Below, piece after piece: positions 2,486 to 41,500 of a stretch of 64,000 nucleotides of DNA. The stretch's first letter is position 1, and every line of letters begins with the position of its first letter. The DNA is from Hybos culiciformis (Eukaryota; Arthropoda; Insecta; Diptera; Hybotidae). The stretch is from contig OZ023273.1 of NCBI GenBank assembly GCA_964007475.1, positions 123,799,812 through 123,863,811 of the forward strand, given 5' to 3'. Position numbers and translations under genes: made by a program. Below the pieces are notes generated by a model, which was not told the DNA's origin, ran no database searches, and saw nothing but the letters and a program-made list of their open reading frames with translations.

Positions 2486-2557
2486 CTCCATCTTTCCATT
2501 CTTCAAGTCCGTAATCAAATATAGAGTTTAGATCAAATTTTTTGTGGGGTCGCTTTC
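2486..2557 (-). CDS. DIP-like gene, stalk exon 2 (last exon in window)
   Basis: A 72-nt phase 1-1 exon encoding GKRPHKKFDLNSIFDYGLEE and then WKDG plus one base, bounded by ttccgcag and G|gtgag. The basic K-R..K-K-F-D start and the DYGxEEWxDG end match what I recall of the stalk in related insect proteins. The reading frame is open, so at least one further exon is required for the end of the stalk and the anchor. Confidence 0.88.
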
Positions 2558-5500: not shown

Positions 5501-8500
5501 ATTGAAGAAATTCGAAGAAATTTGAAACTGAAATTGTATAAAAAAATGCTTCAAATATTTTTATGTAGAAGGATATTTTTTTTTAAAAACTCTCTATACT
5601 AACTATTTACAAATAATATTATGATAGAATCACATCAACTGCATTCTAATATATGTATAGAGATAAATAGATATAATACCTATGTATATTTATGAATACA
5701 TACATATGTATAATATATACATATAATTATATACTTTTGTTAACACTCTTCTATAAATAACATAATCCTAAATGAATTAAAAATTATCAAAGATTTTCAA
5801 AGTAATAATTTTTTTTTTTGCTCACTGACGATTCTTTGCTATTTTATTTTATGAAATAGATATAAACATACATATACAGGACAGGAATTTTTTGACATCA
5901 GATACACTTCAGGATTGCAATCATATTGCAATAAAAAAAAAAAAATTATAAAAAACTTCCCAGAATTTAAAAATTATACTCAAATAAAGTGTTAAGAGAG
6001 TAAAACATTTGTAGATTATTTGCATATTTTGCAAGTGAAAAGAAATATTTTCCTTGCATACATATACAATACATCATGAAAACGAAAAAAAAATAGAATT
6101 ATTTTCCTTTTGCAAAAAAAAAACTACCAAAAAGAAAAGTGTAAACAAAAAGAATTATATATTTTTTGTTGAATAAAAATAAAAAAACTCAATTTTTTTA
6201 TTCTCGACTTACCAAAGCTACGATTATACATGGTGATTTCTGACATAACGGCTGTTGTTGGTGCCAGAATTTCTGAAAAAAAAAATATATATATATATAA
6301 ATGAATGAAAGTTAAAAAAATTTATTACTTACGTTGTTGTTAATAAGATGATTTAGTAAAAGGGCCATTATGTTAATTAAAAAGTACTAAATTCTTTAAA
6401 AAAAAAGTCTATACTATAGTATAAGTAGTGCCGCAACGTTTCGACTTAAAAATCTAGTAACATATATACGAATATAAAAAATAGGCTTATATCATGTATT
6501 ATCAACTATATACGTTTAACACAGCCATATTTGCAAATGATTTATTCTAAGACCTATGTATAACTAAAACTTCATATACATAATGAGGTGTTAATTTTAG
6601 AAAATAAATTCTTATTAGTAGTTATTACAAGTTTCACGCTACACTACTATCTATACTTCTATACCAATGAAAAAAGTTATTATCATAAAATTGAAATACT
6701 TTTCATTGACGAAGTTTGTATAGCTTTTAAGTTAATCTTTCGCGGCAGAATCAATTAGGTATAACTCTTTGCAAAATTTTGAATAAATTTAAAATGAAGC
6801 CCTACAGCCCCAAAACACAAGATTTTGTCAAATTAGTCAAGAAAATCATAGACAAATTTGAACAAAACTTGTTAATAACAATATTGTGAGTTATAATTTA
6901 TCAATTTGAGAAAATATACAATAGTATAAAAATAATTTTAAAATTTTAAAGTTTTATGGTTAAAAACATATGTATTGAGCACCTATAAATTTAAAGATTT
7001 TGAAATATGTGTACAATACTTAAATAATATTCTCTTTATATTCGTATATAAAAAGACTAAGTTTTTAAAAACCTCAAATCTAATGTACAAAATTTTACAA
7101 TTTATAAAGAAAGAAACTATGTTGAGGCTATTAAACTAATAATAAAAAAGATAAATGTGTAGAACACAGAAAGTTTAATAAAAATAAAAAGGATTATTTA
7201 AACATATATATATTTTTTTATATATATAATATATAGATATAGTGCGCTCTTGGAAATGGAAAACTTGAAGTAAAATAAAATTGTATTTCTCGTGAAATGA
7301 CATGGAAAAAACATCTTTTGTGAATTTTATTTTTATTTTTCTATGTGTTTTTATTTTTAACTTATTCGGTATATGTATGTTTTTTTTTGAATTCTTTGAA
7401 TTAGAAAAAGATTTTTTTGAACTTGAAAATAACATTCTGTATGTATTTTTTATTTTTATTTGATAGGTTCAGCTTTAAAAGGAAAATTTTAATCAACAGT
7501 CGGTATTTTTAAAAAATGTTTTTAAAATAATCGATAATTTTCTGCGACGCGACACTAAGTTAAACTTAAATTTAAACTTAAGACAAAGAATATTCGATTG
7601 AGTATCTTCTTTAAGTTCTATTTCTTACAATTCTTAGTTAGTTATAGTCTCAATTACAGCTTTAGTTTTAAGAAAATAATTTTATGTTTTTTTTCATACT
7701 GTATATAAAGCATTGAAAAGTGTTGGTATAGTTTTATAGTATATTCAACACCACTTAAGATTAAACAAAATTTATTAAAAATTTGAGTTAAGGGTTACAT
7801 TAAAAGTATAGAAATCAGATTAACATGAATAATTTCTTTTAATCAAAATATTTTACATTAATTGTTAAAGAGAAAAAAAGTTTTTTTTATCTAGAATATC
7901 TTTTTTTCATAATAGTAATAATCCCAAAATAAATTTATTTGACACAAAATCCCAAATTCAAATTTATTTAGTTAGACTTTTAAGAACTTGTCATTTAATT
8001 ACCATCTAGTTTTATAATGCCATCAGTTTCTCCTAGTGAATTTTTTGCAACACATCTATATGATCCAAAATCATTAGAACTGACATTACGAATTTTTAAT
8101 TTCATAAATTTATGATAACCACGAGTTAATGATGTTGTCTCGAATTTGTCACCTGCTCTTGAGGTATCTGAAAGAAAATGAAATTCCTATTATTATTATA
8201 TAAGATAAGCATTATATGATTATGTACTTTATATATTATACAAATAAAACTCTTTAATTCAGCCGACATTATTTTATGCATATCTATTTCTATCTACTTA
8301 TAATATTAGATCAAAAATAATTTCGATATTGCTTTTAGGGGTTAAAATGAACATTATCGAATGAGAAAATCAACTGAATCTTTTTTGGGCGCGTTTTATT
8401 AAATACAAATATTTCAATAGTGAATTTTTGTATAGAATAAGTGAGTTTACACAGTATGACAACTATATATGAAAATTGCGATAGAGAATTTTTTTTGTAT

Positions 8501-11500
8501 TAATAAATTCATAAAAAAAATTTGCTAGATTTTTTTTGGGATAATTTCAAATTGAATAAATATAAAAACACTAAAAACGAATAAAAAAAAATAAATGAAA
8601 TAAAATAAGAAATACACAAAAAAAATAAAAGAAATATATTTCTGCTCTAATGGTTTTTCTATGTACATTTCTCAGATGGGGATTATCGACTGGAATAGGT
8701 CGTGCATTTTTTATTGGATTTATTTTATTTACCACCCAAACAGTAAATTTTATTAGATTTTTGTCAAAACAATAATAATAATAATAAATATAGAGCAATA
8801 TTTTATTTATCTTCGAAATAAAAAGTATAATTTTCACCAATTATTACACTTTTTTTATAACCATTCATAAATTTCTGAAAAAAAAAAAATAATAATAACA
8901 AGTGAGTTTGAACGATTTTAGAACTTTGTTCTTTTTACAACATAAAAATTATATAAAATTAATTTTCAAATTAAAATATAAATATATATTAAGATTATTT
9001 GATGTACAGAGTAGACATGTTGGCTGGGACCGGTTTAATAAAACTGGGTGTTGATGTTACAATGATCAAAGAGATGTATTGCAATAGTACTGAAAATTCC
9101 GCTTCCAAGCCTGTGCATCAAAATAATTAATTTCCATCTTGCAGTGTTTCGTTTTTGCCTAGTACCCTTTTGGCATTGTGGTAAAATATATGGGAAAGAA
9201 AATTTGCCAAATAATAGTCTTACACATCTATTGAACGTTACTTCTCGATACAAGAAAATGCTAGGCCGCTCATATTCAGTATAAATAAAATGTATCGCTC
9301 CCTAAGTGACTTATTTTATTTTTTTTAAATTTAATTCGCAGTTTTATTTATGAATTATGCTCAAAGTAAAAGAAAATTTCATTAAAGATCTGCATATATT
9401 ATATAGTATGCAATTATAAAAATAAAAATTATTTTTTGCAACTACCAATAATTTAGCGCGAATCGCAGGGAAATCAAATGTTATCTATAATATAGATAGT
9501 ATCGGATTTATATTTTTCATCATCGCCCTTTTTATAGAACTTCTATAAATATGTGTTTTAATCAAACACAATTTTTTTGTGAGCCTGATTAAGTTTTGCC
9601 GCCAAATAAAAGACTTATTATACGATAAATGTTAAAATTTCATTCTAGTTAAGAATATTCTTCTTTAGATGAATTAAATTATAATATTATGTTTTGACTA
9701 TAACGCAACCGATTTAAATTAGTTCTGCATATTTTAATGTTATAAAATTAAGAAAATAATGAAAATCACAACTTAGTAAACTTCCCAAAGCCAGATATTT
9801 TCGCTAAATACTGTATTAAGAGCTGTAATCAAAAACCATATTTATTAATTTATTCATTCAGAGGTAGAGAGTTAAGAAGGACAAAAAACTAATTTTTTAT
9901 TGAAATAAAATAAGATTGTAATAAGTAAGTTTGCATGCCATGTAAATTTCTTTAAATAGTATTAACAATAAAAAAAAATAATATAATTCAACCCTTTCAT
10001 GTTACTTAGAAAAAAAAAAAATACAAAATTAAAAACCTAAATGATCATTTTTGGAAATAAATAACAATAAAATGGCACGCAAATGTATTTTTTTTACTTG
10101 TCTTTTTTTTTTTTTTACCAAGAAAGAAAACCAAATTGAAGACAAATTTATGTTGACAAAAATTTCACGATATACCAAACTTATACATTTTATACCATAC
10201 ATGTAAGTTTAGAAAAAACCAACAACAAAATAAATTCAATTATTGATAAAACAATATAAGTTGTAATTTAGGTTTTTAAAATTATAATGAAAATGTATGA
10301 GCAAAAAATTTCCATTTTGAAAGCAAAAACTTGAATTTTATTTCGAATGTTTCAAGGATTTTTTTTTCAGATAATTTTCAAAAAAAATTTAAATGGAATA
10401 TTTACACTTTATTTTCACAATAACATTATTTGAGTAAATATACTATGAATTCTAAGTTAAAAATGAAATCTGTATAAGTTTTTATTATTATTGGTGTCCC
10501 TATGTGCCTTTCAATTTGAATGTCAGAGAATAAAAAAAGTCAATAACATAAAAATGTAAAATATATTTAAAAAAGTAATCAATCTATATTTCAAATGTAA
10601 TCTTAATTTATATAAAAAAATTATTCCTAAATTATTAAAATCATCAAAAAGTGCGGTAAGAGTCTATGAGACGATGAATGTAATATGTAATAAGCAAAAT
10701 GATACTTGTGTAGAGTTTTGTATTAGATACTTGATGCTTTTGTATGGCTCAGAAAAGGTTAATGTACGCTTGTAAGAAATATTTCAGCATTGTTTATTAA
10801 ATTAGAATCAAGATGCAACTTTTTGCAATATTTTCGTACAATGTTAAAAATATTAAATTTTTTATGTAAATTAATAATAATTTATTGCTTTGCTGTAATT
10901 AGATAAATCTGTGACGAAATTTTTTTAATGACCTCAAACTGGTTTCTGGATAATGTTTCTTCTGTTGTTGAAAACTATATTTTGTATAATTATATTTATG
11001 TAATGTGTAATATGTTGATGGCTTTTGCAGAGAAATAAATAGCACACTCTCATGTTTTCATGTTTTATGCCCAACAACAATCTCACAGTCTCCTTGAGTC
11101 CCTTTATACAATTTTTTATGAACATTTTTAATAGTTAAAATTTGAGAAAAAACTTATTTTTAGTAAACTTTTTAAAATTTTTAATAACCGACCAGAGAAA
11201 CCTACTGCAGTAACTTTGATTTTTGTTTCTGTGTGAAAAATATTCATTAAAAATGTCAAAAAAAAAGTTAATTGACTGATTTTTCTAAATTTGCACTGCA
11301 CATTTTCATTGAATGGCTTTAAAAGTTTCTTTCATCGCTTTAAAGTGCTAAAATTATTTACATTCAATACCTAGTACAGCTGTACAGCGTCAGTATTTGG
11401 AAGAAACAGATTTTTGAATAATAATTTTAAACATATAAAAATTTAATAGGTAAAGAGTCCTTTCTAAAGGCAAACATATAATCGGTTAAGATAATTATTA

Positions 11501-14500
11501 GAATGTGAAAATTATTAAATGAAATATTAATAAGTATTTGCTCCCAAGTGAATATATATGAAAGCATGCATCTATATGATATTTTATATTGGACATTCAG
11601 TTAAAAAAAATTATTAATTAATTCTATTTATCGATCTAAAAATATAAATTTTTTTAATCGTTTTTTTGTTCTTTAAATGTCTTATTCATGTCAAAAATTA
11701 AAAAAAAAATATCGTGTTTAAATCTGCCCAGTTGTTAATATCTAAAATAAGTGGATACGTATATACATAACAATATAAAACTTGTAAATTTTTTCTGATA
11801 TAGTTAAATTTGACTTTCTCGATCATAAGTAATTAACCCATATTTTCGAGTTGTGAATTAGAATATAAAGGCTCATTAAGAAACATTATTCGGTGAGAAT
11901 ATTTTATATGTAGTTAGAAAAAATTTTGATTTTCCTATAATCCATATAAATATATAAAGCTCATTACAATTTTATACTCAATCAAAAAGTTTATTCATCT
12001 TCTAATTTTGGTTTATCATATGTGCTCTATATTCTTAAGACAATTTATACAAGAATATACGAAACAAATGTATCTGCATTATCCATTAAATCCCAATAGT
12101 TATTAGGTTTTTTTCGAATATCTTGATTATCTTTTATATAAAATAGGTACTTTAAAATAAAGTAGGTTTTATTTACATGGCTTTTGGAAGTAAAAATGTG
12201 ATGATATTAACAATTTTTCAAGTTAAAATTATAGTTTTTTATAATATTGATAATTACTAAAAAAAGGTGCGCTAAAACTTGTCGAGATTTCATTAAAAAA
12301 ACTTACTTAAAAAGCGACTGTATGAAGATAAGTGTGAGTTTACAATACATACTAAAAATCAATTAAAATTCAAAAAATACAAAATTTAAATAATTTTATT
12401 ATTTTTATAGGTTTTTATTTATTTTCTTAATCCTCTAAACTATAGTAAGTAAAGTCTACAATAAATTCTAAATTTTGGCATTTTGACACTAAATTGAAGC
12501 AATTACAATCATAAGTTTGTTTTTACCTTCTGGAAGTTGAAGAATTCATAATATGTGTGCTGTGTTTGAAAATGGTAACAATAAATGTCATTTCGGCCTT
12601 TTCAATGTTAAATATTTTTGTCTGATTGTATCTATTTTTCTACATTCGTGAACAATGAAGCTTATAATAATGAACATGAACATTCATTTTATTTTTTTTA
12701 TATTCATACGATTAAATGGATTAAAATGTCCTTCAATGTTTTGACGTTGTTAACAAACAGCAAAAAAGTTTTCTTCGAAACATTTTTTTTTTTTCAAAAA
12801 TAAAGTAAATTCTAAATATAATAAAGATAATGATGATGTATGTACTATACATGTGTACAATGTTAAGACATTTAGTCTATGTATAAATAAATTAAGAGCT
12901 AAAAATAACTTTTAAAGCTAAAAATTAAATTTTTTAATTGTGCCACTACTATTTACTTTGAAGATTAGAGGTTTCTTTTTAAATACTAAATAATTATGTA
13001 TTGTAGGTATGTATATTATGTTTAATATCAAATCTTTGATTTTATATAATATTACGTATATAGCTTTAATGGAATCATTACAAAAAAGTTTAGTGAAGAT
13101 TAAGCCTTCATTAAACACCTGAGTAATTATACTTAACCCAAGCAAATGAACATTGTTCGAAATTTTAGTTTAAAATTATGTTTGTTTAAACGTAAGTCTG
13201 CAGCATAAATACATGAAAATACTATAAGACTATGTACGCTTATGTTATTATTATGTTGTACGAGAATCTATAGTTATACATCATACGTGTTCTTTTTCAA
13301 AGAATCCTGAATGTTTATAAAATTAAATAAAATCTTTTTTTTTATTATGTAAATAATGTTAAAGTGAACGAAATATAATTGCAATGTAACTAAAAATAAA
13401 ACAATAGTAAATTATTCAACACAACACATGGTAGATGGTTTAAATTTCTTTAAAAAAAAAAAAAAAATTAAATGATGTTAATGTGTGGAAAATGGAAAAG
13501 CTTAAGGGATTTCGGGATTTACTTTGAATAACAAAAAAACACAACTTTGAGATGAAGGTGCAACTACGACGTTGCAAGTGTATAAAAAATTAAATAAATT
13601 TACATAAGCAAGAATCGAATCAGAAATAGATAGTTGAAGAAAAAATACTAAAAATAAACTATATTGTAGGGCTTTCGTGTCGTCATATAATTCTGTAATT
13701 CTCATTATAGTTAACATTAATTTTTTTTTTTTTAAGTTTTCTTAATATCAGCCTAAAAATATATAAATTTTATTTTTTAGAATAGGAAAAAAAAATTATT
13801 TTAAAGACGTGATAAATTGTGAGGATATTTTTTTTACTATAAACTAGAGATATGTATATATATAAATTTATGAAGAAAATCCTGTCAACTTCCTATTCCC
13901 GCAAAAAATCTAATAAAATTCATACACATTAAGTCAACCGTCACCATGTCAAATATATGTAAGTATTTATATATAAAAAAAAAAAATTAATAAATAAAAG
14001 TTTTTTTTTTTACTTCCTTGCTTATATTGAGCATTAATTTTTTTTTTCACAGGATTTTCATACCTTAATATGTTATTTTTCATTTTTTTTTCATCATGTT
14101 TATATAGGTAAAAGACTTTTTTTTTTAACACCTGAAAATAAAATCAAACTGGTGAACAATGAACAGCTTGTTTGAATTTTTTTTTTTTTCTTCTTAATAT
14201 AAATTTTATTTTATTTTTTTTAAATAAAATAAAATAAAAATAAAAAAAAATTAAAAAAGAAATGCCTAGAATAAGTAGGAAAAAAAAAACTTTGTTTTAA
14301 ATTTTCGAGTTAACTGCGAAAGATTTGTAGGAAATCCTTTGAATATGGATCGATAACTTAATCGGGAATAAAATAAATTATCTGGGAAAAGAATTGGTAA
14401 AATAAACTTAAAAAAGAAAATTATCTTTTTATTTCATATGAACATGTAAAAATTTTAAAGAAAACTTCACAAATTTTTTTAATTTTAAGATAATTTAGTT

Positions 14501-17500
14501 TTAACTGCATTCACAAATCTGGATCTGAACAATTATGTTCTAAGATTCTACTGTAAGGATGTGTAAAAAACATTTGTCATTATATGTAAATATGTGAGGG
14601 CTTTTATGTTGAAATTTTTTTTAATAAGTCTAATATAGAGTAAAAATTAATACAATTTTGTTGAAAAGTAACAGAAAAGACTTTATTCCATTATGAACAT
14701 TTTTTATTTTGCTTAATAATTAACCTTTTTTTAATTATTTGACAAAAAAAACGAACAGATTCGTAGTTTTTTATCAAAACAATTATGATTTCCAAATAGA
14801 CGATAAGTTCATTAAAATATTTATTTTTTATATAGCAACAAAATGTGGAATAAACTTTTCCAATGATTGAACCGAAGTAGCTGTACCTAGTGGTAGGATA
14901 GATATTATTACAGGGAATAGGATAAACACATTTATAATTTCATTCGCTAAATGTGTCCAGTAAGGTGGTAATATTAAAAAAAAAATCAATTAGATAATTT
15001 GTCTTATTAAAATTTAATATATTAACATGAATCTTATATGTGTAAGAATCTTAAGAGAGTAGAGCATTTGAAATTTAAAAAATTTAAAAATGTCTGCGCA
15101 CAAATAGCTGTATGCCGACTACTTTCGGACAAATTTATCTTAAATAATTGAAAATTATTTGAAAGTAATCACAAATTAAATTGGCACTTCGGGATCAATA
15201 TTGTATATATAATACAGATTATATGAGCCAAAATTTGTTCACAAGATATCATTTGAGCACCATCGGAGTAGAGCATTGAGAAATATATCTAAGTTATGTA
15301 AGTTCTATAAATTATTGTTGCTAATATAGTGATGGTACAATGCTGATTTTATTAAGTACACCTTTTTTATTTTATTCTATTTATTATTGTAAGTACATAC
15401 CTAAATAATTTTCTCTCTTATATTGAAATCAAATACCTAACTACAAATAAAAATATTTTGTAAATGTCTAACGATCGAAAATGATTTTCACACCTATATT
15501 TTAAGAATGTAGGCATCATTATGTTTCAGTGTTTATATATTTTTTTTTTATAAACAAAAACTTTTCAATTTATTTTCTTCTTAATGTTTGCATACACTAA
15601 AGTTATGCAAACTCTCTTAAGAAAAATAATGCTATTGTACCTTTTTTTTTATTGAAAAAAATGTAAATTTAATAATTTATCCAAATATGGTAAATGGGAC
15701 TTTCAAATATAAAAAAAATATTTTTTTTTAACAGCAAAAAGGATTTTCATACAAAAGTACATAAATATAAATATAATACATAAATGTGTATACAATATGT
15801 ATTCAAATCTTTGTTGAGGCAATCAAATAAACAATTTAATTCGTAACATACCTTTTCTATATTATGTATGTTCCAAGGGGGGTTCATATAACACTAAGAG
15901 GGAAAACATTTTTTTTTTTTTTTATGCCATAACCTATAAACATAAACTGAATTCAATAAAATCATGTATTGAATTGAGAATATTTTCACAGTTTTATGGT
16001 ATTAAATTTCATTACTACCCAGGCACACAATGGGGATCCGTTCTGTTTAAAAAACAAATAATAAATTTTGAGGAATAAAAATGAAAAGCAATCAAAAAAC
16101 TGTAACTTCAAAATTATATTAAGAGAATGTTGTTTTTTGTTTTTTGTTAAATTTATTTATAGAATCATATGAAACTATATATCGTAAAACTATATGTGAT
16201 CTGTATGTGATTCTGTAACCTTTGTCTTCAATTTATGTGCTATGTCGAAACATGTACCATTTTACTTTGTAATCATAAGATGAAATATGCTGCAATTTGC
16301 AAAAATAACGATATTAAAATAAACATTACTAAACTCATAAAATACATCATCGTTTAGTAATTAAAATATGTCTCTTGAATACATTCATTGTCAATATTTA
16401 TTGTTCACTAATTCCGTTTAAGAAAAACAAAATGGTTTTCGGTACATAACAGAATATAATATAACGATTGAGTTATAAGATCTAGCCTGAGGATCTCTGC
16501 CACCACTTTCGGTAGAAGTGAAATTGATATTATTTTTTAGTGCGAAAATAAAATTTTAGTTTTGGAAGAATATTATTTCTTTTGTTGAATGAATATTAAT
16601 TCCCTGTAAATCTTCAAGCTGGCAAATTCGCCAATCCATTAGTAAGATCGACAACTATTTTCATAACCATTTTTTTATCTAATCGATTTTGATAAATAGA
16701 CGTATACTACACAATTTTGCATTCGGGTAGTACATATTTTCATAGGTATTATACGTATAAAATCACTGTTAACCTTTTGAATTAATTTTTTCCCCTTCTT
16801 TAACTAAATTGTTAAATCAGAAAATCAAAATAAACAACAACATTAAATTTTGTTTGACTTTAAAAAGATTTATGTTAAAAAATGTTGTGAAAAAGTTTTG
16901 AAATTTCAGGTATTTATTAACGGTAAACTTTAAGTTAATGTAAATCGAGCAGAAACATTTTTCATTTGAAGGAAAAATGGGTATTGAAAAGAAAAATGAT
17001 CTAAAAATATAAAAATATAAAAATTTTCGCTTTTAGAAAAAAAAAGAAAAATAAAAATAAATAAAAAAAATATAAAAATAAAAAAAAAGGTCAAAGATTT
17101 TGAAATTCTTAATGTAATATCATTATTCGATAAGTAGATAATGTATATATAAAAATGTTAGAGTAGATTATACTGTCGTAATATCAAGTACAGCGAAAGT
17201 ACTGATAAATTGAATCATTTGGATTTATTTTTGAAAAGGGTTTAGAATTTTTTTTTTTTCTGAAAAATTTATTTAAATCAAATTTATTTTCAGTATTGTC
17301 CATTTTTAGATGAGTTTAAAAGAGTTAGCATTTAACTAAGTAAACTATCAGTTTTTGACTAAGTAACTTTTAATTTTATTGTTCATAAAAGATTAAATGA
17401 ATTTTCATACTAAAATTTAGTGAGACGACAGATAGAGTAAGAACCCAAAACAAATATTTGAATGTTTTTTAAATCCCGGTTTTGCTTGTTATTTTTAATT

Positions 17501-20500
17501 TTTGTTTGCCTCGGTGGTTTTCCTTTTCCTACATATGATAATAATTTTTTTGAAACTCTCTTTGATGGAAACGAAAATTTTAATAACTATAATAATAAAT
17601 AAAAAATATTAATATTACCTGATATTATCATGTCTCCTCGCTCCGTTGTCCAATAATTTATTGATGCTGGATATGCTTCGGTTTCACATTCTAAAATTAC
17701 TTCCTGTCCGACGTATGCTCCTTCTAACTGATTAGCTATTGATAACATTGGAGGAACTATATTAAAAAAAAAAGAAATATATATAAGTATAATATTAAAA
17801 TTATTAATCATTATGGAAAAACATATGCAAAGCCTTTTTGACTTCTGCAGGTAGCATAATAGGTAGTAAAATAAGGTATGCATAATTGCAGGTAAAAATG
17901 TAAATAAGAAGTTTCGTATAAGAAACAAATTATAAAATTGGATATAAAATCAAATATTCCATTCATTCAAATTTAAAAAGTATGTAAATTATTGTACATA
18001 CACTGAACTCTTAGGTGAACTCGTTTACTTATAGATGGTGGAACACCATTCGATGCTACGCATAAATAAGCTGCCATGTGAAGTCTGCTTACTTTCGTGA
18101 TATGTAATATCTCACCATCAACAACATTAACTGCAAAAAAATAATTAAAATTTATAGAAAAGGTAAAGTGGAAAGTTTTTTATACATTATAGTTAAAGTA
18201 TGTAATAATCATGATTAATTGATCATAATAATGGCTAAACGTTAAAGTCCCACCTAACACATTAATAGGTTTGAAAAATTTTAACTACAAAAACTTTTAT
18301 TTTGTATTAGAAATTCAAATCTCACCAGTTTCTCCTCCAATTGACATTTCTTCACCATCTTCACGCCTCCACATTACATAAGGCTCGGGATAACCACGAG
18401 CTTTGCACATTAAAGTGACATTTGTGCCTTCTCTTACGACCATGTCATTACTTGTCATACTCTCAATTATCATCGGAGGTACTGAAATAGAATAGTTAAT
18501 ATGAATAATATAAAGGGTTTAACAGTTTGAAATCTAAGTTAGTTGCGTAACTCCCCTACATATTTTTATATTTAAAAATCAATTTTCAAACATAGCCAAT
18601 AAATTTAACTTATGTCACATTGAAGAAATTGAAATTGAAAACATTGAGAACTTTCAGAATCTCTAAGTTTGAAATATTTATATTGGCGAAATTCAAAAAT
18701 AAACTAATTTTTTAAACTACGGTCAGCAGCTTTACTAACTTAAATTAAAAATAAATTACACTTGACACGATATTTATATCTTTAGCTTTAAAGAATACGT
18801 TCTTTCTACTGTTTTGTTTCTTATAATTAATATAATATATTTCATTTATAAATGTATATTATCTATCGTCTATCTCAATATTATATCTTTCATGATATTG
18901 TCTAATACTTTCAACATATACGATTGATTTTCTTAAGTAATTAGCTTATTCTAAAAATTACATAGATTACCCTTTTTTTTTATGTACATTTTTGTGTATC
19001 TCTCTAAAAGTTACATTATTGATATTTTGGTTAAAACTATGTAAAATATAATAAAATTTCTTTTATATTTATAATTTTTTTTTATATGAAAAGCCAATTT
19101 TTATTGTTACGTTTTTGTGTTTTTAGTAAATTTTCCTCTCTGAATCTACTTATATAAAAATAACCACATCACATATTACAAAACCTATATATATGTCTGT
19201 CTAATAAAATATCTTAATTCATATCTCATTCAAGAAAAGGTTTTTCTTTTTTTACGGTCGTATTATATTGTTATCATCTCAAAAAAAATGGGATAATATA
19301 AAACATCTTAACTAAATAATATCAAATAAAATATATACAACATAATAATAATAAATAAATTCAAAATGAAAATAATAATCAGCTTACCTACAACTTGTAA
19401 ATATCCTTTTCTTGATCTCATTGGATCAGTATTAATTTGGCACATATACCATCCCCTATCACTTTCTTCAACTTCTTTTATGTGCAAATACCATGATCTG
19501 TGGTCGTTATATGTTAAACTTATACGTGGATTTTGGGTAATCACATTATGATGTATTGATAATATTGTTTGTGTATCAACTCTCACCCATGCTACCTGTT
19601 GATGATTATATATAGATATATATTATACAAAGATGTTATACAATTATTACTATACGTTTGGATATAAAATGAATAAAATGTTACGTACGTTTTTATTATA
19701 TTATTTGTGTAAGATACGTATTTATTTAATTCTATATCATTTCTATATAAAAAGAGAATTTTCCATGTAATAATAAAATATATAAATAAAAGAAAAACTT
19801 AAAAGAATTAAAGCATCACTCTAAAAATAAAGTACACCACTCTGATTATATGTGTATGAAAGAAAATCTTAAGCGCTCTAAACATTTTACGGAATTTTGA
19901 ATTAGAACTTAAGGCAAATTATAGAACTTTGCTGTCTTTTTTTTTATATGTTGAGCATAGTAATTCATTAAAGAAATTAAGTGATTTTTTTATTAAGATT
20001 CAAGTATGTTTTTTTCTGGTTTTTTTAAAGGAAAAAAGACTTATTAGAAGCTTTTGAGAGGTTTTGTATTTTTTTTTTCACTTTAATAATCATGTGTATT
20101 ATGTGAAATAAATATTGAATGTAATAAAAAATCGGGGAAAAGTTACTTTAAATTGAATTACTTTGGCTATATATTGCTGAAGTTAGGAACATAACATCGT
20201 TATAAATGTCCAAAAGCTAACAAAAAGATAAACTTTTTTTTGATAGTGAATTACTGAGTTCTGTATGGTAATATTCTGAAAAAACTTATTTATTTATTTT
20301 ATTTTAATTTTCTAAAATTTCCTTATATATAGTTTTCAATTAAAAACTTTGAAATTCTCCGTATTTTTAATAAAAAGTTTTTTTTTTCAAAATCCTTATA
20401 GTGTAATTATGTTAAATATAAGTAACAATCCATGTAAATTGTTCCCTTTTTTCTTTCTTATATATATATGATTGTGTACAAATAATCGGCTATATATGTT

Positions 20501-23500
20501 TATTTTATATAAATATATAGGTTGTTATGTCTATATAACGTGTATATAAGTATTTATAAAATAATATCCGGTAAATTCACAAATTATATTCAGGATGATG
20601 ATATTAAGGAAATTTAAAGGATAAATTATTCAATATTATTATATAAAGAAGGAAAAAAAAAGTTTATTTAATAACGATAAAAACGATTACGATGATCATG
20701 AAGTTTATACACAAAATAAATTGGAATTATTTATTGAGTGGAAACATTATGTTAAACATAATTTTTCATAATTTTCATTCATAACAATTTAAAGGAATAT
20801 TATATATGTATGTTTGTATACCTAATCAATGAATTATTATTGATAAAAAATAAAACAAAAAAAAAATCTAAGTACAAGTTCAATATTAAGTATAGTATAA
20901 AGCGTTTTTACTTACTTTAAAAATTTTCAAATTTTCTACTACACATGCTAGTAATGCATCTCGTCCCACTGATACTGTAACATTTGGTATTGGTTCAGCA
21001 AATCTTGGCATACTTGCATCTAAATAAAAAAATTAAAATAAATGCAGATTATTCATATTTTATAAATATAGGCATATTTAAATTAAATTTGCAAATTATG
21101 TCGTAAATTAAAAAAATAAAATTATATTAAGTTTTATTCAGACATGGAAAAAATGTTCTTTTTTAAAGTTTAAACGCTGAAAATAATGTATAATATTACA
21201 AATTTAGAAATTCATTTATGTAGATGTTAATAAGTTTACAAAGTTTCTTCGATGTGTTTCTTTTCACAAATTACATAAGTAAGTTCAGATAAATATTCTT
21301 ATATGAATATAATTATTTAAAAGTTTTTGTTCTACGATTTTTCTCAGTGTAGGATTTAGACATATACAATGTTCTAGAAAAACACGGGCTTTTCAATTAC
21401 CTTTCTTTTTGTACTATGGCTTCCGCCTCAAATAGTATTAAAATTTCTTTCAGTGAATCGACTGGTAAAGGATCAAAAATTTAAATGTTAAAATAAAAAC
21501 AAGAAAAATACAGACATGAAATTTAAGTTTGCGTGGCATGTGATGTACTGAAAGAGCTTATATGTTATTTATTCTAAAATTACTCTAATTACATTGAAAT
21601 TTGAAATGAATCTGTGATTCATTAATTATTTAATAATATGAAGAATTTGAAACTATGCTAAAATCGAACAATTATTGTTAAAAACAGGATAATTTTATCA
21701 TTAAATTTTTTAAATAAGCAGTTGGGCTTTAGTTTTAGAATAATAATTATTATATTCGTTCCAAATAAAATACTAAAAATAAATCTATATTTTGTACAGG
21801 GATGTTTTCGGTCCAGATATAGCTTATCAATAATACGTTGGTCATACACATTTAATGTGACGCTTTAATAATATAAAATACGCTGGAAATAACAAATTTT
21901 TTGCCACAAATTTGATACCCGTTTGAGGCACAAAAATTTCTTCACTTATAACTTTTTGGATTTATTTATTTTATTTGATTGCTTCTCAGTCTCGAGAAAA
22001 ATCTTTGGGTCTGATTCTATTTTATTGCTCTTAAATGTAGTTTTTATACTGAGAAATAAATATCTTTGTAAACAAAAAAGGGGTTAGTGAAGTGAAAGAA
22101 CTCAAACTACAACATTATATCCTTCAAAATGTGTTTACTCTAAAGCCACGAGCCTGACGTACTAAAATAAAATAACAATGTAGACGTTTTTTTGAAGATT
22201 TTAATTTTTTTGAGTTTCCTACTGATTGTACAAGAATAAGAATCACAACCAGTGGAAATCGTTTTAAGATACGAGCTTACGAGAAAAAATATACCATTTT
22301 GCAAATTCTTTATAAACTATATAATATACAATATGTCTTTTATATACAAAAATTGGTGTTATGATTTACAGAATATTATATAGAAATTTTGAAAGTCAGT
22401 TAAAAATTTTAAAGTAGTAATGAAATCTAAATATCTCGAAGCAATAATAAAAAAAAAGTTTTTTTAGTTTGTTTTTATTAAATCAAACCATTTATATAAA
22501 ACAAATTGAAAAAGTTAATTGACATTTGTGTATAGTTAATTAATGTTAATAATAAACTGTGTGAAATTTATATACAATACATAGATGATTTTATTGAATT
22601 TCTTGGCAGAATGAATCGCTTATATAATATTAATGTTTTATAATTATAAGAAAATATCTCTGACGGAGTAAAATAAATTATTCGATTACAACAAGTACTA
22701 ATTGACTTTGGAATTTATACTTTATTTTGCTACACTTTTCTAAACAAACGTTTTTATTTGACAAAAAGCTCAAAATAGTAATAAGGATTGGATGTATTAT
22801 TGGGTTACGAAAATTCCTTCTTTGTATGACAACTAAACTCAACAATAAAGAAAGGCAAAGATATGAATTTCAGATTTGCAGTTTTTTGAATAAGACAAAT
22901 TAACATTTTTGACCGCGGAGTTCATAATAACGAAATTTTCAAGAAACTTAGAGAACTATTTTGAGATGAGTTTCAGTATTCTGTACGAGGCAATTTCTGA
23001 AGAACTAGAATTAATGCTTGATAAGTTCTTTCCGCTCTGTTCTAAGTATTAGAACTTCAAACTGTACTCTCTAAATAAATTTTGGCTAGATTGTGGGTAA
23101 AAAAACTAGATTGAGCAACTAGATTGTGAGCAACTAGGATCTAGTTGGAAATCTAGCTTCCAAAATTTACCTAGATTCTAGTTAAAATGCCAAACTAGAT
23201 TCCTAGTGGAATTCTAGTTACCAAGGCTAGATCTTCCATTTTTTTTACTAGAATCTATTGACTTTTTTTTATAAAAAAAAAAAAAAAATTATTCTAATAT
23301 TTTTTTTTATTTATTACAATTTCTTTATTAGATTTTTATTAAATTCTAATTTTATTTCTTACGCCTTCTTCCGGATTCGAACCTGGGTCTTTAACATTGC
23401 AATTCGCCAACACTACCACTCAGCTACGGTATTGAAATTTAAAATGTACATAAAATAGAAAATATAAATTTGGTATACACATTTTCTTTGTGGTGTGTTA

Positions 23501-32500: not shown

Positions 32501-35500
32501 TTTATGGTTAAAAACTTGAAAAGTATTTAAAATAAAATGTTCTGAAACTTTTTTTTTTTTTCATAAATTAATTTTTTTCACAGAAAAGATATAAAGTATA
32601 TATAATATATATTTTGTATATAGTATCTATGAAACATAAATTTTCTCTTAATATTTTTAAAGCAAAAAAGAATTATTAAAAAAAAAAAAACGAAACGAAA
32701 CTTATTTGCATTGCAAATAAGCGTAAAAAAAAAATTTTGGTCATTCAAAGATAGTATTTCTCGAAACGTGTAAATGAGGTATAAAACAGGATACGTAGAT
32801 ATCGCATACATTAAAATATTTCATATTGTCAAAATGTAGGTATATTTAAAGAAAAATTGGTTTAAATAATTTTCTCTTTAGCTTTTAACATGTATTACCC
32901 TCAAAGAATGGATATGCAAATTACTATTATCTTTTTTTCGGTTTTTTTTTTTTTTTTGGGAAAATATCTGTCTGTGAAGAAAAAAAAAATATAGAAAAGA
33001 AAACTATATTATTTGAAGGGCTCTTGACCTGAATATTAACAAAACGTTTCCTTTTTTTTTTTTTTTTTGTACTTAAAATGCAATGAAAATTTTCGTAAAC
33101 CAAAGAATACAAAATATTTTATAATCGTTTTTATTTAACCATGGGATAAATTCATAAAATAAATTTGAATAAATTTATATCTGGGGTATAAAATAGGACT
33201 AACATTATGTATTAAATATACATATATATATATAGAGTTTTTTTTCCCCCAAAATGCGGTAATTTAAATTGATAACACAGAAATCACATGCAAAATATAG
33301 TGTTTCATAACATTAAAATATAACTATGTATGTATGTATTGTGAAAATACAATATACAAGCCCGCATAAGAATAAAAATAATATAGTATGTAGTGTATGT
33401 ACAAAATTTTCAATCTTAAAAATGTTTTCTTATACTCTTTATTTTGTTTTTTTTTTTTTTTTTAAATACGGTTATGTTCTACATAAAATATATAGTATAG
33501 TTGCGCTTTCGAAATATTTGTATCCTACAGCTATATTTGGTTGCAAAATAAAAGTGTTTTATTATAAGGAAATGTTTGTATTTATATATGTATAATTTTT
33601 GCATTTTCTTCAAAAAAAAAAAACAACAAACTAATAAGTAAAAGAGATGAGAACATATAAATAAAAAAAAAAAATTTGCTATTTTTTTTTTCCTTTTTGA
33701 GATCTTAATTTGCAAGCATTTGCATAATATAATCGTTTTATTTTTATCTAGGGAGCTCATATGACTTTAAAGAATATGTTTTTTGTTTTGTTTTCTTTTG
33801 TTTTTTTTTTTTTGGCGTGAATAAATATTTTGATAAAATTTTCTTCATGAAAATCTGTTGATCTATCAATTTGCATAGGTGAGCCTTAAAACTCTAAGGA
33901 TATGGTGTTAAAAGAAAATAAATATGTAAATTTTTAGCTATATTATATATATATAGTATCTAGGGTTGCCAGTTTTTAAAAACCCGAAATATGGACAAAT
34001 TGAAATTTTATTAGTTCAAATCTGGACAAATCTTTACAAAACCTAAAGAAATCTGGATAAAAATCTGGACAAAAATGATATGATTTTTAAAAAAAATTTA
34101 CCATGGAATAAATTAATTCAGTTTTTTTCATTGATCAATATAATGTTATTGCTTTTTATTTCATAATGAATTCTTATTATAAAGATAGGAAATTAATATA
34201 TAATGATACAATCTTCATCAAATAAAACCAGTGCATTTTTCATATAAAACCAGTGCATATTTCTAGGTAGGTAGTTACCAATTCTCAACCACATCATTTT
34301 TTCACTTTCAATGAACAAAAATTATAGAATTTTAGTACTTACCACTATAAAGTTATGATTTTTGGATTTTTCAGACATTTTTCTACATAAATCGGGATTG
34401 TTTTATTAATTTTTTTTTTTTAAATTCGTAGAATGAAGAAAAAAACCCATTTTCTCCTATTCTCAGTCTCAGCCACCCAAATTCTATTCTCAGCCACTTT
34501 GGTTTTTTTAAAGAAGAATTAAGCAATAAAACTCGGTTTTAAGTAATAATTTCGTTCAATTTTATTTAATTAGGAACTATAAGTTTATAAAAGCCAGATT
34601 AGAAAACTTAAAAAAAAAACAAAAAATAATTATTTATGCATTATATAAGAAAAGTATAAAAATATTTTAAATATAAAAAGGTAGCGGAACTGAGTTTAAA
34701 TAATATTTACAATAAATTTAGTTTTTGAATACAATTTTTTGTTTCAAATTTTATTTTATTTGCTAATATATTGAAAAACTGGACAATCCAGATGTCCAGA
34801 TTTGTGTCACTGAAATTTCTGGATTGTCCAGATGTCCAGATTCAAATTTTTTCATATCTGGACAGAGACCGAGAAATCTGGACAATCCAGACGAAAACTG
34901 GACGTCTGCAACCCTATCTACGTAACGTGTCCAAGTGAATATATTTCTCAAAGTATATTCATTTAAATTCAATATTACAAAATTTAATAAGTTTTAAATT
35001 AATTTGTAGAATAAATAATTCAAATAAAAAAAAAAATAAAAATAAAAAAATAAGTTAAAAACGAGTTTTCCAAAAAACTGAGGCCAGGCCGCATGAAAAA
35101 GTAGAAAATATCTTTCAATCAAAAAATCTGAGTCCACCTCTGTGTGTGAAGAAAAACTTATTTTCTACTTTTTCATGCGGCCTGGCCTCAGTTTTTTGGA
35201 AAACTCGTTTTTAACTAATTTTTATTTTCTGCCTTTTTCACATTAACTAAATTGTTATTATGTGCTGCATGGATGTTTGAAAACAATTTTATGACTAATC
35301 ATATCGATGAAAATTTTTCCGATGATTTTTCCGCTTTTTCGGATTTTCCATGGAGTTTTCTGCAAAAGCAACTTTATGCAACTCATTTCGCTCTACAACT
35401 TTGTCTCAGGTTGCAAAACGCTCAAACGCTTCCTTGGTCGGAAAAACTCCGGAAAAGCGTTTTACATGAATTTTCTTCGATTTTTTCTGCAAGTTTTCAC

Positions 35501-38500
35501 CATTGTCGGAGAGAAAGTAATGATGCCAGTTGATAGGGAACTTGATCCTGCATAATTTAGAAAACTTTTATACCGGAAAATTTTCAGGAAAAATCGGAAA
35601 ATTCCGGAAAATTTTTTCGAAAAATCAGAAAACTTTGCGTTTTTCCTAAAACGGATTTATCACTACTCAAATTTGTACCAAATTTTCAAATGATTTTTCC
35701 CGATTTTCCGGGTTTTCCATGGAAATTTCCGCTTCAAATTTTGATAGCTTCAATTGTCACGTGACATGAACCTTTGTGCCAAATTTCAGCTCGCTGTGAT
35801 GACGAAAAGTGGGTCTACGAGAGTGTCGAAAATAGTAAAGAAATATACAGACAAATTACTTTACAAGTTAATAAGAATTGTGTCCTCAAAAAATAAATTG
35901 TAATTAAAAAGGATGAAAAGAAAAAAAAATAATTTATTGTTTTATTTTATTTTCCTTTTTTATATAATATGATATGTTTACATTCTACCAAGAATTATCC
36001 AAGGAGTCAGTTAACTCCATATTTAACACTCGACTAGTCTAAGAAAAAAACGATCACTATGTGCGAAGTAATTAACTTATTAAACGGCTCTGATTGGAAC
36101 GCATTGTATTGCTACATTTTAGATTTGTTAAAGTATAGGTCACTTTTTATGGATGAGTTTGATGAGAAAATAGATTTCAGTATTTCAACAACTTTTTGAA
36201 TTTTTCTGCTTTTTTGATTTATTTTTTAATTTATTTTTCATGTCATTAATAGTTATATTAAAGTCTCTTTTATTTATTAAATTTAGCAAACGGCTTTGGC
36301 CATCGCTATTTTATTATCGTATTTAATAAGATTTAGTTAAACATTAAACATTTCACACATATATTTCATAATTATTATAACATGTAAACTTTGTATTGAA
36401 ATTTGAATTTGAATTAATAAACGATTTATTTACTTACTTACTTACTTACTTATTTTTTTATTAATATTTTTCATTCAGTTTATTTTATAATAATCAAAAG
36501 CAATATTTTTGTATAGTTATGCTGCAATTTTTCATTATAAACATGTTCAAAATATGTTATAATTTTAATAAAATATTTAAAAAAACTTTTTTGAAATTTG
36601 GGTCCGATTTTCAAAAAGATTATGGACAATTTTTGTGCTTTTTACTATCAAATGCCATCAATACTTAAATTTTTCAGATTTTGGTAGATACTGTGTTTTT
36701 CACTATATGACTGCAGTATGATAAATAGACTTTAATTAGTTTTGCGACCAAATTTGACAGTACAGTTGTTGACGTTTGTACACAATTTTCTGAAAGATTT
36801 GATGTTTTTTTGATAAATTAAAATTGTTATTATTATTATTATTAAATATACGAAAAAAAATTTTTTTTGCATTTACTACCTCGTACAAAATTGTGTAGTA
36901 AATGCATACCAAAAAATATACATTTAATTGTTTTTTCTAGCGAAAAATAAATTACAAAAAATATCTTTTTATACATTATGAGTTTCTGAAATTTTTATGA
37001 CAAATATTGCTATAATTATATGAATAGATTATTTTAAAAAGTTAAAGTATGAAATATTTTTCATTGATATAACAAACATGAAATTTTGCTAACGTCATTC
37101 ACAAGTTCGATTGGACCGATGTAATAAATACGGGTTGTACAGAAATTAAATCTCCAGCTATCTGTTTTTCATTGTTAATATCATCAATTATTCGATTTAA
37201 AAAAAATACATTTAGTTACGTTACATTCATATAATATTATCAACATTATTTAAACTAATGTTTGAATTATATTCTTCCTTTTGTATCCCTCTTTTTTCTC
37301 AATTAGATGAAGTTGAATAATTGTTAAAGCATTACAAATAATTAAAGCACTGAGACTTATAAAGAATTTTTTGTTGACTTCAAACAAACCAAATATCGTT
37401 GAATCGCATCGTACAATTTTAAACTGACGTAACAATTTTTCGAACTAAAAATAAAATCATATGATTTGATGACGTATATAACTAAAATATTAATTAAAAA
37501 AAAATATTTTAAATTTCAATTAAGAAAGAAAAACTTCAGAAAAGATTGTTACGCTTGGAAAAAACTATGACTATTAGTCTATTATGGAAAGAAGAAAACA
37601 AGATTGAACTTTTGTTATATTTTTATATCAAATTAAAATTTTCTTCGCGCCCTGGAGGAAAATTGTATTTGTAACTGAGTACTTCAACTTTCAGCTTGAA
37701 ATATATTGTATTACTAATTTTATTGAACATATAATATAAATGTACCTCTCTGTCAAAAGACTTATTCTCATAAATCTTACAGGCGTGCGAATTTATTGAA
37801 GATTTCAAAAGTTTATATCTCGATATTGGGAAATCAAAAGAATATAAAATCAAAAATAATTCAATCAAAATTATTAATAGACTGTAAAAAGTTTGTAACT
37901 GAAAAAATAAAGAAACAAAATAAAATTCATAGAATAGACTAAATCCACTTTCAAAAACTAAACTTATAATTATGAACTGGTAAATTAATTTAAATTTATT
38001 AAATACTTTACAAGAATTTTTGGATAAAATCATTATTTTCTTAAGGTTAATCATGCATTTTCTATTTTGCCTATCAAAATTCTCATGTTCCCTTTTAGAA
38101 ATAAATAACTTATCCAAATTATAAGAAATACTTTTAATTGCATGACCAACAAATAAAAAAATACAAAAAGATGGAAATGTGGAAAATAATTTTATACAAT
38201 CGTTTAGAAAATATAAATAGACATTAAAATAAACTAGACGCCGACTTTCTTTTAGAAAAAAAGATTCAATTATTGCAGTTGCCGTATTTTTAGCTTTAAT
38301 AATTAAAATTAAAAATTTTAGAAGAACTAACACAAATATTTCACTGTCAAATGGAGCTTGAAAATTAATTAAGATTTTAGAAAATTTAAAAAAAAATTTA
38401 AATAATTTTGTGAGTTTAGTATCAATTACAACTGAATTGATTAAAATTAATAATGAAATTAAAATATATATAAAAGTGCGAAAAGATGTTACTGCGAAAC

Positions 38501-41500
38501 TAACTTGAGTTGAGAAGCACATTAATTTAAATGACGGAATTATAAAAAAGTAAAAAATTCCGATAAACATATATAAAAACATAGAAAGATGGACACATTT
38601 AATTAAATTGATTATATTTTTTTTATATGGAATTATTTTAAATTCGTTGAGTTGGAACGTGAATTTAATGAATCCAAAATATTTCGAACAAACATAAAAA
38701 GTCCAAATTATAATAAAATATGAATATTCCAAAATATAGGCCATCAATTATATAACTCTGTCAAACTGTCAATCGATATTTATAGCGAACATAGCAGATA
38801 GAATTATTTCACAAAACTGAAATTAATTTCTAGAAATCTAGAATAATAAATTTAATTTAATCCAATTTCTCTAATCAATTAACTAATTAATTATCTTTTA
38901 TTTTATTCTCTAATTTCTTTAGTTCATACTTATGTTATTGTATGTATTGTAACTAATTGAGTAAATTTCATTTGAAATATTTTGAAGTTGTTTCTTTATT
39001 TCAGAGATCTCCAAATTACCGCTTGTGGGCCGAATCCGGACTGTGCCGCAAAAGGGGGCAATTGATTCTAAGATTAAATGTATGTACAAATATACGCAAA
39101 AAATTTATAATAATTTATATACTAATCACATTTTAAAATTCTAAAGTTTTCTTTTTTACTAGAATTGTATATATAATGTATAATATTCATTATGAAGATT
39201 ATATATAATATAATATATAATGTTCATTATGAAGATTATATATATAATATATTATATAATGTTCGTATTTTATTCACTGTAAAAGATGAATTGGTTTAAA
39301 ATACAGCGATAAAAGAAATTCGAAGCAGTCATAGAACGAATTAAATTATTTATACATTATGCAAACTGATAATTTGTGTAGGGTATAACTTGTGCCATGG
39401 TACGATGCAAATCACTTGACTAATCCGTTGTCAAAAAAAAAAAATTTCTGCCATTTTTTTAGAACGGGAATAATATTTTAGTTTCCAAAGATTAAGGAAG
39501 AGCTTTTCGTTATGAAAAATAATTATTTTAATTGAAAATATGTAGAAAATTTATTTGAATGTATGTCTCTTGAATGTTTTCTTTTTTGAGGTCAACCACC
39601 TAACTCGTTTTTTCACTTTCAATGAAGAAAAATTATAGAATATTAGTACTTACCACTATAAAGTTATGATTTTTGGATTTTTCAGACATTTTTCTACATA
39701 AATCGGGATTGTTTTATTAATTTTTTTTTTAAATTCGTAGAATGAAGAAAAACCCATTTTCTCCTATTCTGTCTCAGCCACCCAAATTCTATTCTCAGCC
39801 ACTTTGAATTTTTTAAAGAAGAATTAAGCAATAAAACTCGGTTTTAAGTAATAATTTCGTTTAATTTTATTTAATTAGGAACTATAAGTTCATAAAAGCC
39901 AGATTAGAAAACTTAAAAAAAAAACAAAAAATTATTATTTATGCATTATATAAAGTATAAAAATATTTTAAATATAAAAAGGTAGCGGAACTGAGTTTAA
40001 ATAATATTTACAATAAATTTAGTTTTTGAAAACAATTTTTTGTTTCAAATTTTATTTTATTTGCTAATATATTGAAAAACTGGACAATCCAGATGTCCAG
40101 ATTTGTGCCACTGAAATTTCTGGATTGTCCCGATTTCCAGATTTTAATTTTTTCATATCTGGACAGAGATCGAGAAATCTGGACAATCCAGACGAAAACT
40201 GGACGTCTGGCAACCCTAATAGTATCAAGGTAATAAACATTTTATATTTTTTGTTTTCAGATTTTTATAATTTATTTTAAATATTGTTTGCATAATGTTT
40301 TAATTTTTATTTTTTTGAAGTTTTAACTTAAGAAGTTTTGTGATCGAAATACTGCAGGTAGAACAAAATTGTGTATAAAATAAGTTTTGCAAAATTTGGT
40401 GCAGTAAAATGCAGTCTGTATGGCAGAATTCTAGATAACGAAATTCTGTAGAAAATATTTATAGAAAATTGTGGCATCTATATTTTCTGTATATTTTTAG
40501 TTGCGAACAAGGTATTACTAAAATCAAACATTACATGTAAATTATATATTTTTTCAGTGTAGTTTCGTTAATCAAATAAAGTAGTAAAAAAATAATTGCT
40601 GTACCTTGGCAGAAATATTTATTAACGGTTGGCAATTAATTAGCACTCATTCATCATATTGTGCATAATTATTTAAGTTTTATTGAAAAGTAAGAATAAG
40701 AGTAATGAGGTATGTAATTTATTTACATATAACACTTAAATTTGTTATTTTTTTTTATTTGTAAAGATATTTAAAATATCGACGTTAATATTTGGGTTAA
40801 TAAAATGCTATAGATAGGCATAAGTACATACGTGAAAATAGTTTCAGAATATTCGACATTATGGGGAAAGAGTTTATCTTTTTGAGAGTTTATCTTTTTG
40901 TATTTCATTTATCATTAAAGAAACATTAAAATTAAGTCTTTTCATGATCTTGCATAATATAATTTCTTAAAAATCAATAAATCACAGAATCAGTGGTTCA
41001 GTGGTATTCATGAAAGTGAAAATTAGAACATTTTTTTATTATAATTTTCTAATAATAACTTTAAGAAATTTTTTGAATCAGGAAATTTTCTATATAATAT
41101 TGAGTTAAAAAATATATTATTATACTACTAATGTTATGAAATAAATATTATTATAATACAGTGAAAGATTAAGGGTTATTATATTAGTTTTGGGCTACAT
41201 AAAGTTTTCCTTATGATTGGGAACTGATAAAGAAAATTTAATATATTCATAAAAGAGTATAACTTTTAACACCTAATGTACCTTTAATGGAATAAAGTTT
41301 TATTTTATTCTTGCATTATTTATAATAAAAGTACAGTATATATATAATATTAATAATAACTTTGTGTATATAGCTTCTTATATATATTTTTATTCAATAT
41401 ATCTAGAATTTGAATTAAGTACCATGACATTGGAAAAAAGTTTTTTTTTTGGCAAAGAAAATAAAAAAAAATTATTATTGATGAAATGAAACTTTTCCAA

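Follow-up and report, generated by a model that had tools for sequence, protein, structure and literature searches.

Insect chemoreceptor families often consist of tandem clusters together with scattered single genes, and the route by which the scattered members escaped from their clusters is usually unknown. The question of how a single receptor comes to stand by itself is raised by a stretch of 64,000 nucleotides of the dipteran Hybos culiciformis (referred to here as the window; C1:123,799,812-123,863,811 in a genome of 342 Mb and 509 contigs), in which 4.7 kb of DNA with an open, probable gustatory-receptor gene lies between a complete and a truncated copy of one hAT-type miniature element. 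This dispersed receptor is found inside a unit with a clear insertion signature. The 6,258-bp block bounded by the outer hAT ends (33961-40218), called the composite below, was very probably inserted once: a hAT transposase would have taken the left end of copy 1 together with the right end of copy 2 for the termini of one element, which is macrotransposition in the broad sense. The parts of the composite and its borders are as follows.

33953..33960, no strand: 8-bp target duplication, left copy, ATAGTATC
33961..34916, plus strand: hAT miniature element copy 1 (W1), complete, with a perfect left terminal inverted repeat (TIR)
34917..34924, no strand: inner right flank of copy 1, TCTACGTA, agreeing with the left flank at one of eight positions
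35045..35897, plus strand: young, very abundant repeat inside the block, unrelated to the hAT copies; edges approximate, long matches 93-98%
36026..36448, plus strand: second dispersed repeat inside the block, matches 87-90%
36827..39591, minus strand: coding and non-coding DNA with homology to the gustatory-receptor cluster at C1:50.56-51.66 Mb
37250..37444, minus strand: gustatory receptor exon 2, with the last hydrophobic segment and the stop
37746..38744, minus strand: gustatory receptor exon 1
39592..40218, plus strand: hAT miniature element copy 2 (W2), left third missing; right TIR at 40207-40218 perfect
40219..40226, no strand: 8-bp target duplication, right copy, ATAGTATC

An earlier sequence-only reading of this DNA had described two damaged hAT copies around 4.7 kb that includes an intact chemoreceptor gene, and the arrangement holds, with copy 1 complete bar one base, copy 2 truncated and the gene open. 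It had further assigned to the outer ends a perfect 12-bp inverted terminus and a perfect 8-bp flank, and both are located: the terminus TAGGGTTGCCAG stands at 33961-33972 on the plus strand and its reverse complement CTGGCAACCCTA at 40207-40218, no other match at two mismatches or fewer occurring in the window, and ATAGTATC borders the two termini externally, at 33953-33960 and 40219-40226. Neither copy has a target duplication of its own, as had also been proposed; the flanks of copy 1 are ATAGTATC and TCTACGTA, and in copy 2 the left end is missing. Copy 1 is one base short at its right terminus (CTGCAACCCTA). The start of copy 2 was set at 39592, where homology to other family members begins, and its end at 40218; over 34294-34916 and 39605-40218 the two copies are 96% identical with gaps counted and 97.6% identical in ungapped columns. 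No stop-to-stop frame of more than 77 amino acids touches either window copy, and the element is multi-copy. The 8-bp duplications and short TIRs of the family are those of a hAT element, for which part of one account of Drosophila hAT elements gives a TIR range of 5-27 bp (PMC3517528).

The agreement between the outer flanks can be judged against the rest of the family. A search of the genome with the element gave 43 matching rows, 40 of 223 candidates being scored, and the flank test covers 23 copies, namely the two window copies, 20 fetched copies and the copy L036, with the ends of L021 and L036 set by hand; outside the test stand 15 rows of a 535-bp variant, the damaged copies L037 and L038, two fragments adjoining a variant and one row that is a piece of L027. 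Both flanks are present in 20 of the 23 copies (W2, L025 and L027 are each without one), and among these 15 carry a perfect 8-bp duplication of their own, two agree at seven of eight positions and three have none. The three without a duplication are W1, L024 and L026, all of which belong either to the window composite or to a second composite on C3. The 12-bp TIR TAGGGTTGCCAG is perfect at the left end of 17 of the 20 fetched copies (one has a mismatch and two are truncated) and at the right end of 19. When the left and right flanks of the 23 copies are compared in 440 cross-pairs, three pairs agree at all eight positions and the remaining 437 at six or fewer, the next best being two pairs at six. 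The perfect pairs are W1-W2 and L024-L026, which are the two composites, and L026-L036, which involves the source flank of the second composite. Within the window, ATAGTATC accounts for 7.8e-5 of all 8-mers (five occurrences, the outer pair included), and two random window 8-mers are identical with a probability of 2.8e-4. A match of the flanks by chance, which the sequence-only reading had retained as an alternative, is practically excluded, since unrelated pairs reach at most six of eight positions.

A tree built from 25 rows over the 614 bp at the right of the element (bootstrap not fully settled) places W1 and W2 as sisters (97/94) with L027 next to them (99/96), and L024 and L026 as sisters (88/81) with the source-locus copy L036 next (84/80). 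In each composite the enclosing copies are thus mutual nearest relatives among those sampled, whether through a shared origin or through conversion afterwards. The closest relative found for the two window copies (95-96%) is at L031 5752-6835 (C3:20.156 Mb), with an interruption of about 150 bp within it. Two copies of the 535-bp variant, L034 2153-2695 and L035 2787-3329 (C1:33.14 and 33.15 Mb), have identical outer flanks and are perhaps nested in another repeat. A second family search (45 rows; 40 of 131 candidates scored) added one more close copy, at C3:44.5 Mb and 97% identity, and about 15 diverged ones; only part of the family candidates was scored and fetched, so that other composites may exist.

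The enclosed gene is modelled on the minus strand from an ATG at 38744, with exon 1 at 38744-37746, a 301-bp GT-AG intron in phase 0 and exon 2 at 37444-37250, giving 397 amino acids with predicted splice sites. A single-exon reading of the gene was dropped because the two-exon model lifts the Pfam score from 17.2 to 22.7 bits; the match of this model to 7tm_7 covers profile positions 5-368 of 370 (E 7e-5), under the curated cut-off of 26.6 bits. The predicted protein has seven hydrophobic peaks, two of them overlapping, and the intron precedes the exon that carries the last hydrophobic segment. We still think that the gene of the block is probably an insect gustatory receptor despite its sub-cut-off 7tm_7 score. 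In protein-database searches no homologs were found at E 0.01 with exon 1, nor at E 0.001 with a four-row alignment, for which the 7995 candidates sharing most words were scored.

Relatives of the receptor stand elsewhere in the genome, where a protein search returned 43 matches, the gene itself included. They are found in the cluster at C1:50.56-51.66 Mb, about 72 Mb away on the same contig, with further members on C80 and at C1:6.69 Mb, long pieces having 77-83% nucleotide identity, and in a more distant cluster at C3:35.48-35.54 Mb, with 70-73% in long pieces. Homology to the C1 cluster extends past the exons into the non-coding flanks. On the low side it starts at 36827 (L059), 36867 (L055) or 37096 (six loci); on the high side, among 13 fetched loci, it ends at 39595 (L057), 39587 (L056), 39580 (L058) and 39571 (L063; the fetched stretch stops nearby), in four others at 39538-39544, and in five at or below 39109, two of these being short stretches. 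The ends in L056 and L057 coincide with the edge of hAT copy 2 at 39592. At this edge the cluster locus L057 reads GAGTTCAA and the window GAGGTCAACCACC, an apparent joint with three to four shared bases. In the DNA bordering the composite, 9 kb to its left and 9.8 kb to its right, comparison with the 13 loci gave only five hits, of 31-51 bp. A tree of 14 exon 1 rows, with two C3 genes as the root, sets the window gene apart as a separate lineage next to the genes of the C1 cluster, on a branch of 0.10 whose exact place the tree leaves unresolved.

A second composite of the same element family stands at C3:38,168,767-38,175,571 (minus strand; L029 1268-8072), and its source survives. It consists of two complete copies, L024 and L026, which are 99.8% identical and enclose 4,878 bp; its outer flanks both read ATCGCGAT and its inner flanks differ. 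The inner DNA matches a source at C3:30.816-30.825 Mb piecewise at 93-98%, with about 350 bp having no match there. The source locus runs from C3:30.816 to 30.827 Mb, and the matched DNA there is the left flank of the hAT copy L036 (C3:30.82 Mb), around which CTTAGGTA is duplicated. On the inner right side the composite passes through the CTTAGGTA of the source into the hAT copy, as at the source itself; on the inner left side copy 1 ends in its right terminus and CCCAAAAATCACAAG follows directly, at a place where the source is uninterrupted (TTATTAGGACCCAAAAATCACAAG), and this left junction corresponds to source DNA 8.7 kb from the resident source hAT copy. The roughly 6.5 kb on each side of the second composite matched the source region in only three hits, none longer than 68 bp. 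The enclosed DNA holds two frames of a trypsin-like protease, with Pfam Trypsin matches at 1-44 (E 3.3e-13) and 49-220 (E 1.6e-27) of 220; the source and composite proteins are 77% identical in exon 1 and 88% in exon 2, and the intron between the two exons holds, at the source, several kilobases that are absent from the composite. Most simply read, the left-junction position of the source would once have carried a hAT copy on some chromosome, and the outer ends of the resulting pair would then have moved the intervening DNA. About 1 kb of extra DNA lies inside the source hAT copy (L036/L051, C3:30,812,100-30,831,000) and is absent from the mobile copy.

The sister composite still has its source locus, and the steps can therefore largely be read off. 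Both composites show a directly oriented pair of elements with a shared duplication on the outside only, ATAGTATC in the window (where copy 2 has no left end to compare) and ATCGCGAT on C3, as expected of a macrotransposon, and in both the enclosed DNA comes from elsewhere. Of two full-length elements at the donor, the second source shows one; the window donor is absent from the genome matches. Under the favoured explanation, one hAT element would first have doubled, through a local hop or because replication copied the element and its flank a second time; hAT transposase would then have acted on the outer ends, the block carrying with it a gene from the cluster family about 72 Mb away, and copy 2 would have been truncated at the apparent microhomology joint during or after the event. 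We infer the transposase, the order of these steps and the exact donor. The proposal of the sequence-only reading that a single macro-element carried the receptor is supported by the flank test, by the receptor relatives 72 Mb away and by the second composite with its surviving source.

Insertion by the outer ends could have come about in two forms, which differ in the donor. In one, a classic macrotransposon, the donor would have had two full hAT copies in direct orientation around the receptor, produced by a local hop, and copy 2 would have lost its left third later; we put this form at a little short of an even chance. The second composite speaks for it, with two complete copies and a left copy whose joint lies 8.7 kb away from the copy resident at the source, an indication that it inserted separately, and the sister relationship of the copies is what a local hop predicts. 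For the window it needs an extra deletion to account for the truncated copy 2 and its apparent microhomology joint. In the other form the ends of a single donor element would have been used during replication, the forks re-copying the element and its receptor flank before aborting, with the ends joined inside copy 2. This composite insertion, a mechanism described for maize Ac in portions of PMC4270019, predicts in one step a complete copy 1 running into other DNA, a copy 2 broken and joined by microhomology, an origin of both copies from one element and an outer 8-bp duplication, and we regard it as a plausible minority view. Given sister copies and a copy 2 broken at an apparent microhomology joint, it fits the window about as well as the classic macrotransposon, and for the window the single-donor and two-element forms are inseparable. 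It misfits the second composite, where re-replication from one donor is ruled out, the left inner edge being the left flank of the source element and not its right flank, and its window donor is absent from the genome matches. For the second composite the best fit is a local hop with macrotransposition after it.

Explanations that do without an outer-end insertion of the whole block fare less well. A single resident hAT element at ATAGTATC might have received the receptor DNA later, by a circle with a hAT copy or by break repair from another hAT locus, with a duplication of 630 bp. This account, an alternative raised by the sequence-only reading in the form of an insertion into an existing hAT element, would likewise yield two direct copies with a duplication on the outside, and at 39591/39592 the joint resembles a repair-type microhomology; what it leaves unexplained is why copy 1 meets the inner DNA with its exact right terminus. 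The added DNA would have to start exactly at a hAT right terminus in both composites, which amounts to a prior hAT insertion beside it, and W1 and W2 are mutual nearest relatives among the 25 rows (97/94), whereas independent resident and incoming copies should as a rule differ more, barring conversion. Later addition needs more coincidences than outer-end insertion and is unlikely. Two independent hAT insertions beside an always-resident receptor, with flanks agreeing by chance, are highly improbable: the chance of such identity is about 1e-4 and it occurs in no unrelated pair among the 440, the longest cluster matches stop at copy 2, and cluster-type DNA is absent outside the composite. On the latter two grounds a receptor native to the site with two hAT insertions is ruled out. 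Tandem duplication of a 5.3-kb unit is likewise ruled out, as copy 2 is followed by ATAGTATC, where a repeat of the unit would give the TCTACGTA that borders copy 1.

Several observations weigh against the macrotransposition of the block. The search with the inner segment, which the sequence-only reading had proposed for finding other copies of it, brought out the cluster relatives, and the genome matches include no near-identical DNA from which the receptor block could have come; identity to the nearest paralogs is about 77-83%, compared with hAT copies that differ by 2.4%, so that the direct source is lacking. In the block, the 1.9 kb at the left (34917-36826), with the two dispersed repeats, is untraced to the cluster, and the cluster matches that reach copy 2 come from two of the 13 fetched loci, the rest ending earlier. 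For the second composite, the source differs by 2-7% according to the piece, and by 12% with gaps near exon 1, whereas the flanking copies differ by 0.2%; to account for this, either a diverged source allele or paralog or homogenised copies are needed. The reference source locus shows neither a second hAT copy (the first copy of the classic form) nor a footprint at CCCAAAAA, near C3:30,816,338, which counts against that form as well. Cut-and-paste may have removed the donor of the receptor block, or it may lie on another haplotype or have been deleted.

Both forms of outer-end insertion have precedents in plants. Maize Ac/Ds macrotransposons are reportedly the subject of a 2008 study by Huang and Dooner. 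In such macrotransposons, as described in parts of two sources, the ends of two adjacent elements mobilise the DNA between them, in one case up to 100 kb, and an excised macrotransposon left a modified 8-bp duplication (PMC9910405, PMC3260210). The composites of Hybos culiciformis share with these the hAT superfamily and the apparent mobilisation of intervening DNA by the ends of neighbouring elements; they differ in having insect miniature ends of about 0.97 kb, in that each composite is gene-bearing, and in being known from assembly structure alone. Maize Composite Insertions, in sections of the account in PMC4270019, have hAT ends that frame a copied donor flank and an internal repair joint, possibly alike at 39591/39592; in contrast to these, the second composite does not fit the form and the window donor is absent from the matches. 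Ising's Transposing Element of Drosophila is likewise an insect case of host DNA carried by a pair of DNA transposons; the pair are Foldback elements instead of hAT miniature elements, and the DNA amounts to hundreds of kilobases (PMC6431247). The Mar and Vege elements of Drosophila willistoni, hAT miniature inverted-repeat transposable elements treated in PMC3517528, are likewise AT-rich and non-coding with 8-bp duplications, at 610-884 bp and with TIRs of 11-12 bp, and the Mar termini given there differ from those of the window element. A term search of the main text of PMC3517528 found neither 'composite' nor 'nested'. Macrotransposons and composite insertions are thus already known from maize Ac/Ds, where macrotransposition is well understood; in a search of open-licence papers no natural hAT-ended, gene-carrying composite was noticed in an animal, which is weak evidence that the present case is a new example.

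Two gene-bearing natural cases from one animal miniature-element family would make the role of macrotransposition in gene-family dispersal testable, by a simple genome scan for paired elements with outer-only duplications. It is an evenly balanced proposition that this hAT family has repeatedly acted as a gene shuttle, in which local doubling was followed by outer-end transposition that exported genes with their own flanks, a chemoreceptor from a tandem cluster and a trypsin-like protease, to distant sites. If true, this would be a natural animal route by which tandem families seed dispersed single-gene loci.

What the receptor has done since it moved can be approached through the ratio of non-synonymous to synonymous substitution rates (dN/dS). 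Purifying selection on the receptor was considered and dropped, there being no evidence for it at a dN/dS of 0.75-1.32 against 11 cluster genes; the ratio is 0.54-0.61 against the two C3 genes, and its median among 55 pairs of cluster genes is 1.00. On the receptor branch, 16 non-synonymous and three synonymous changes could be polarised, a ratio of 1.12. With a dN/dS of about 1, like that of the cluster genes, the receptor shows no sign of constraint. In substitution-only simulations the frame stayed open in 0 of 4000 runs over a branch of 10%, in 0.8% over 5% and in 10% over 2.4%; an open frame is not expected neutrally over a 10% branch and is unremarkable over 2.4%. Most of the receptor branch may predate the move, and receptor function after the move is only putative. 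Within the cluster at C1:50.56-51.66 Mb (L056-L064), several members are damaged and pairwise dN/dS is near 1; the protein database yielded no homolog of these genes.

The gene adjacent to the composite is lachesin/neurotrimin-like, with immunoglobulin domains, and nearest to proteins of insects, chiefly Diptera, as judged from the 120 best of 961 hits at 62-79% identity, the first seven rows being dipterans.

2481..21020, minus strand: lachesin/neurotrimin-like exons; strong matches at 8004-21020, weak ones at 6184-6273 and 2481-2576

The composite lies 13 kb 5' of the nearest exon found by homology (21020-20910), and no 5' signal-peptide exon of this gene was found by homology in the window, and the composite may stand either in an intron or upstream of the gene. 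Searches of the window against Rfam at curated thresholds and for tRNAs gave no matches. The repeat at 35045-35897 is very abundant (2096 first-look candidates in a genome search with the inner block), and its left part forms an 85-bp inverted repeat (35031-35115 and 35154-35238). The repeat at 36026-36448 has copies of 87-90% identity on C2, C3 and C473 and at C1:72.9 Mb.

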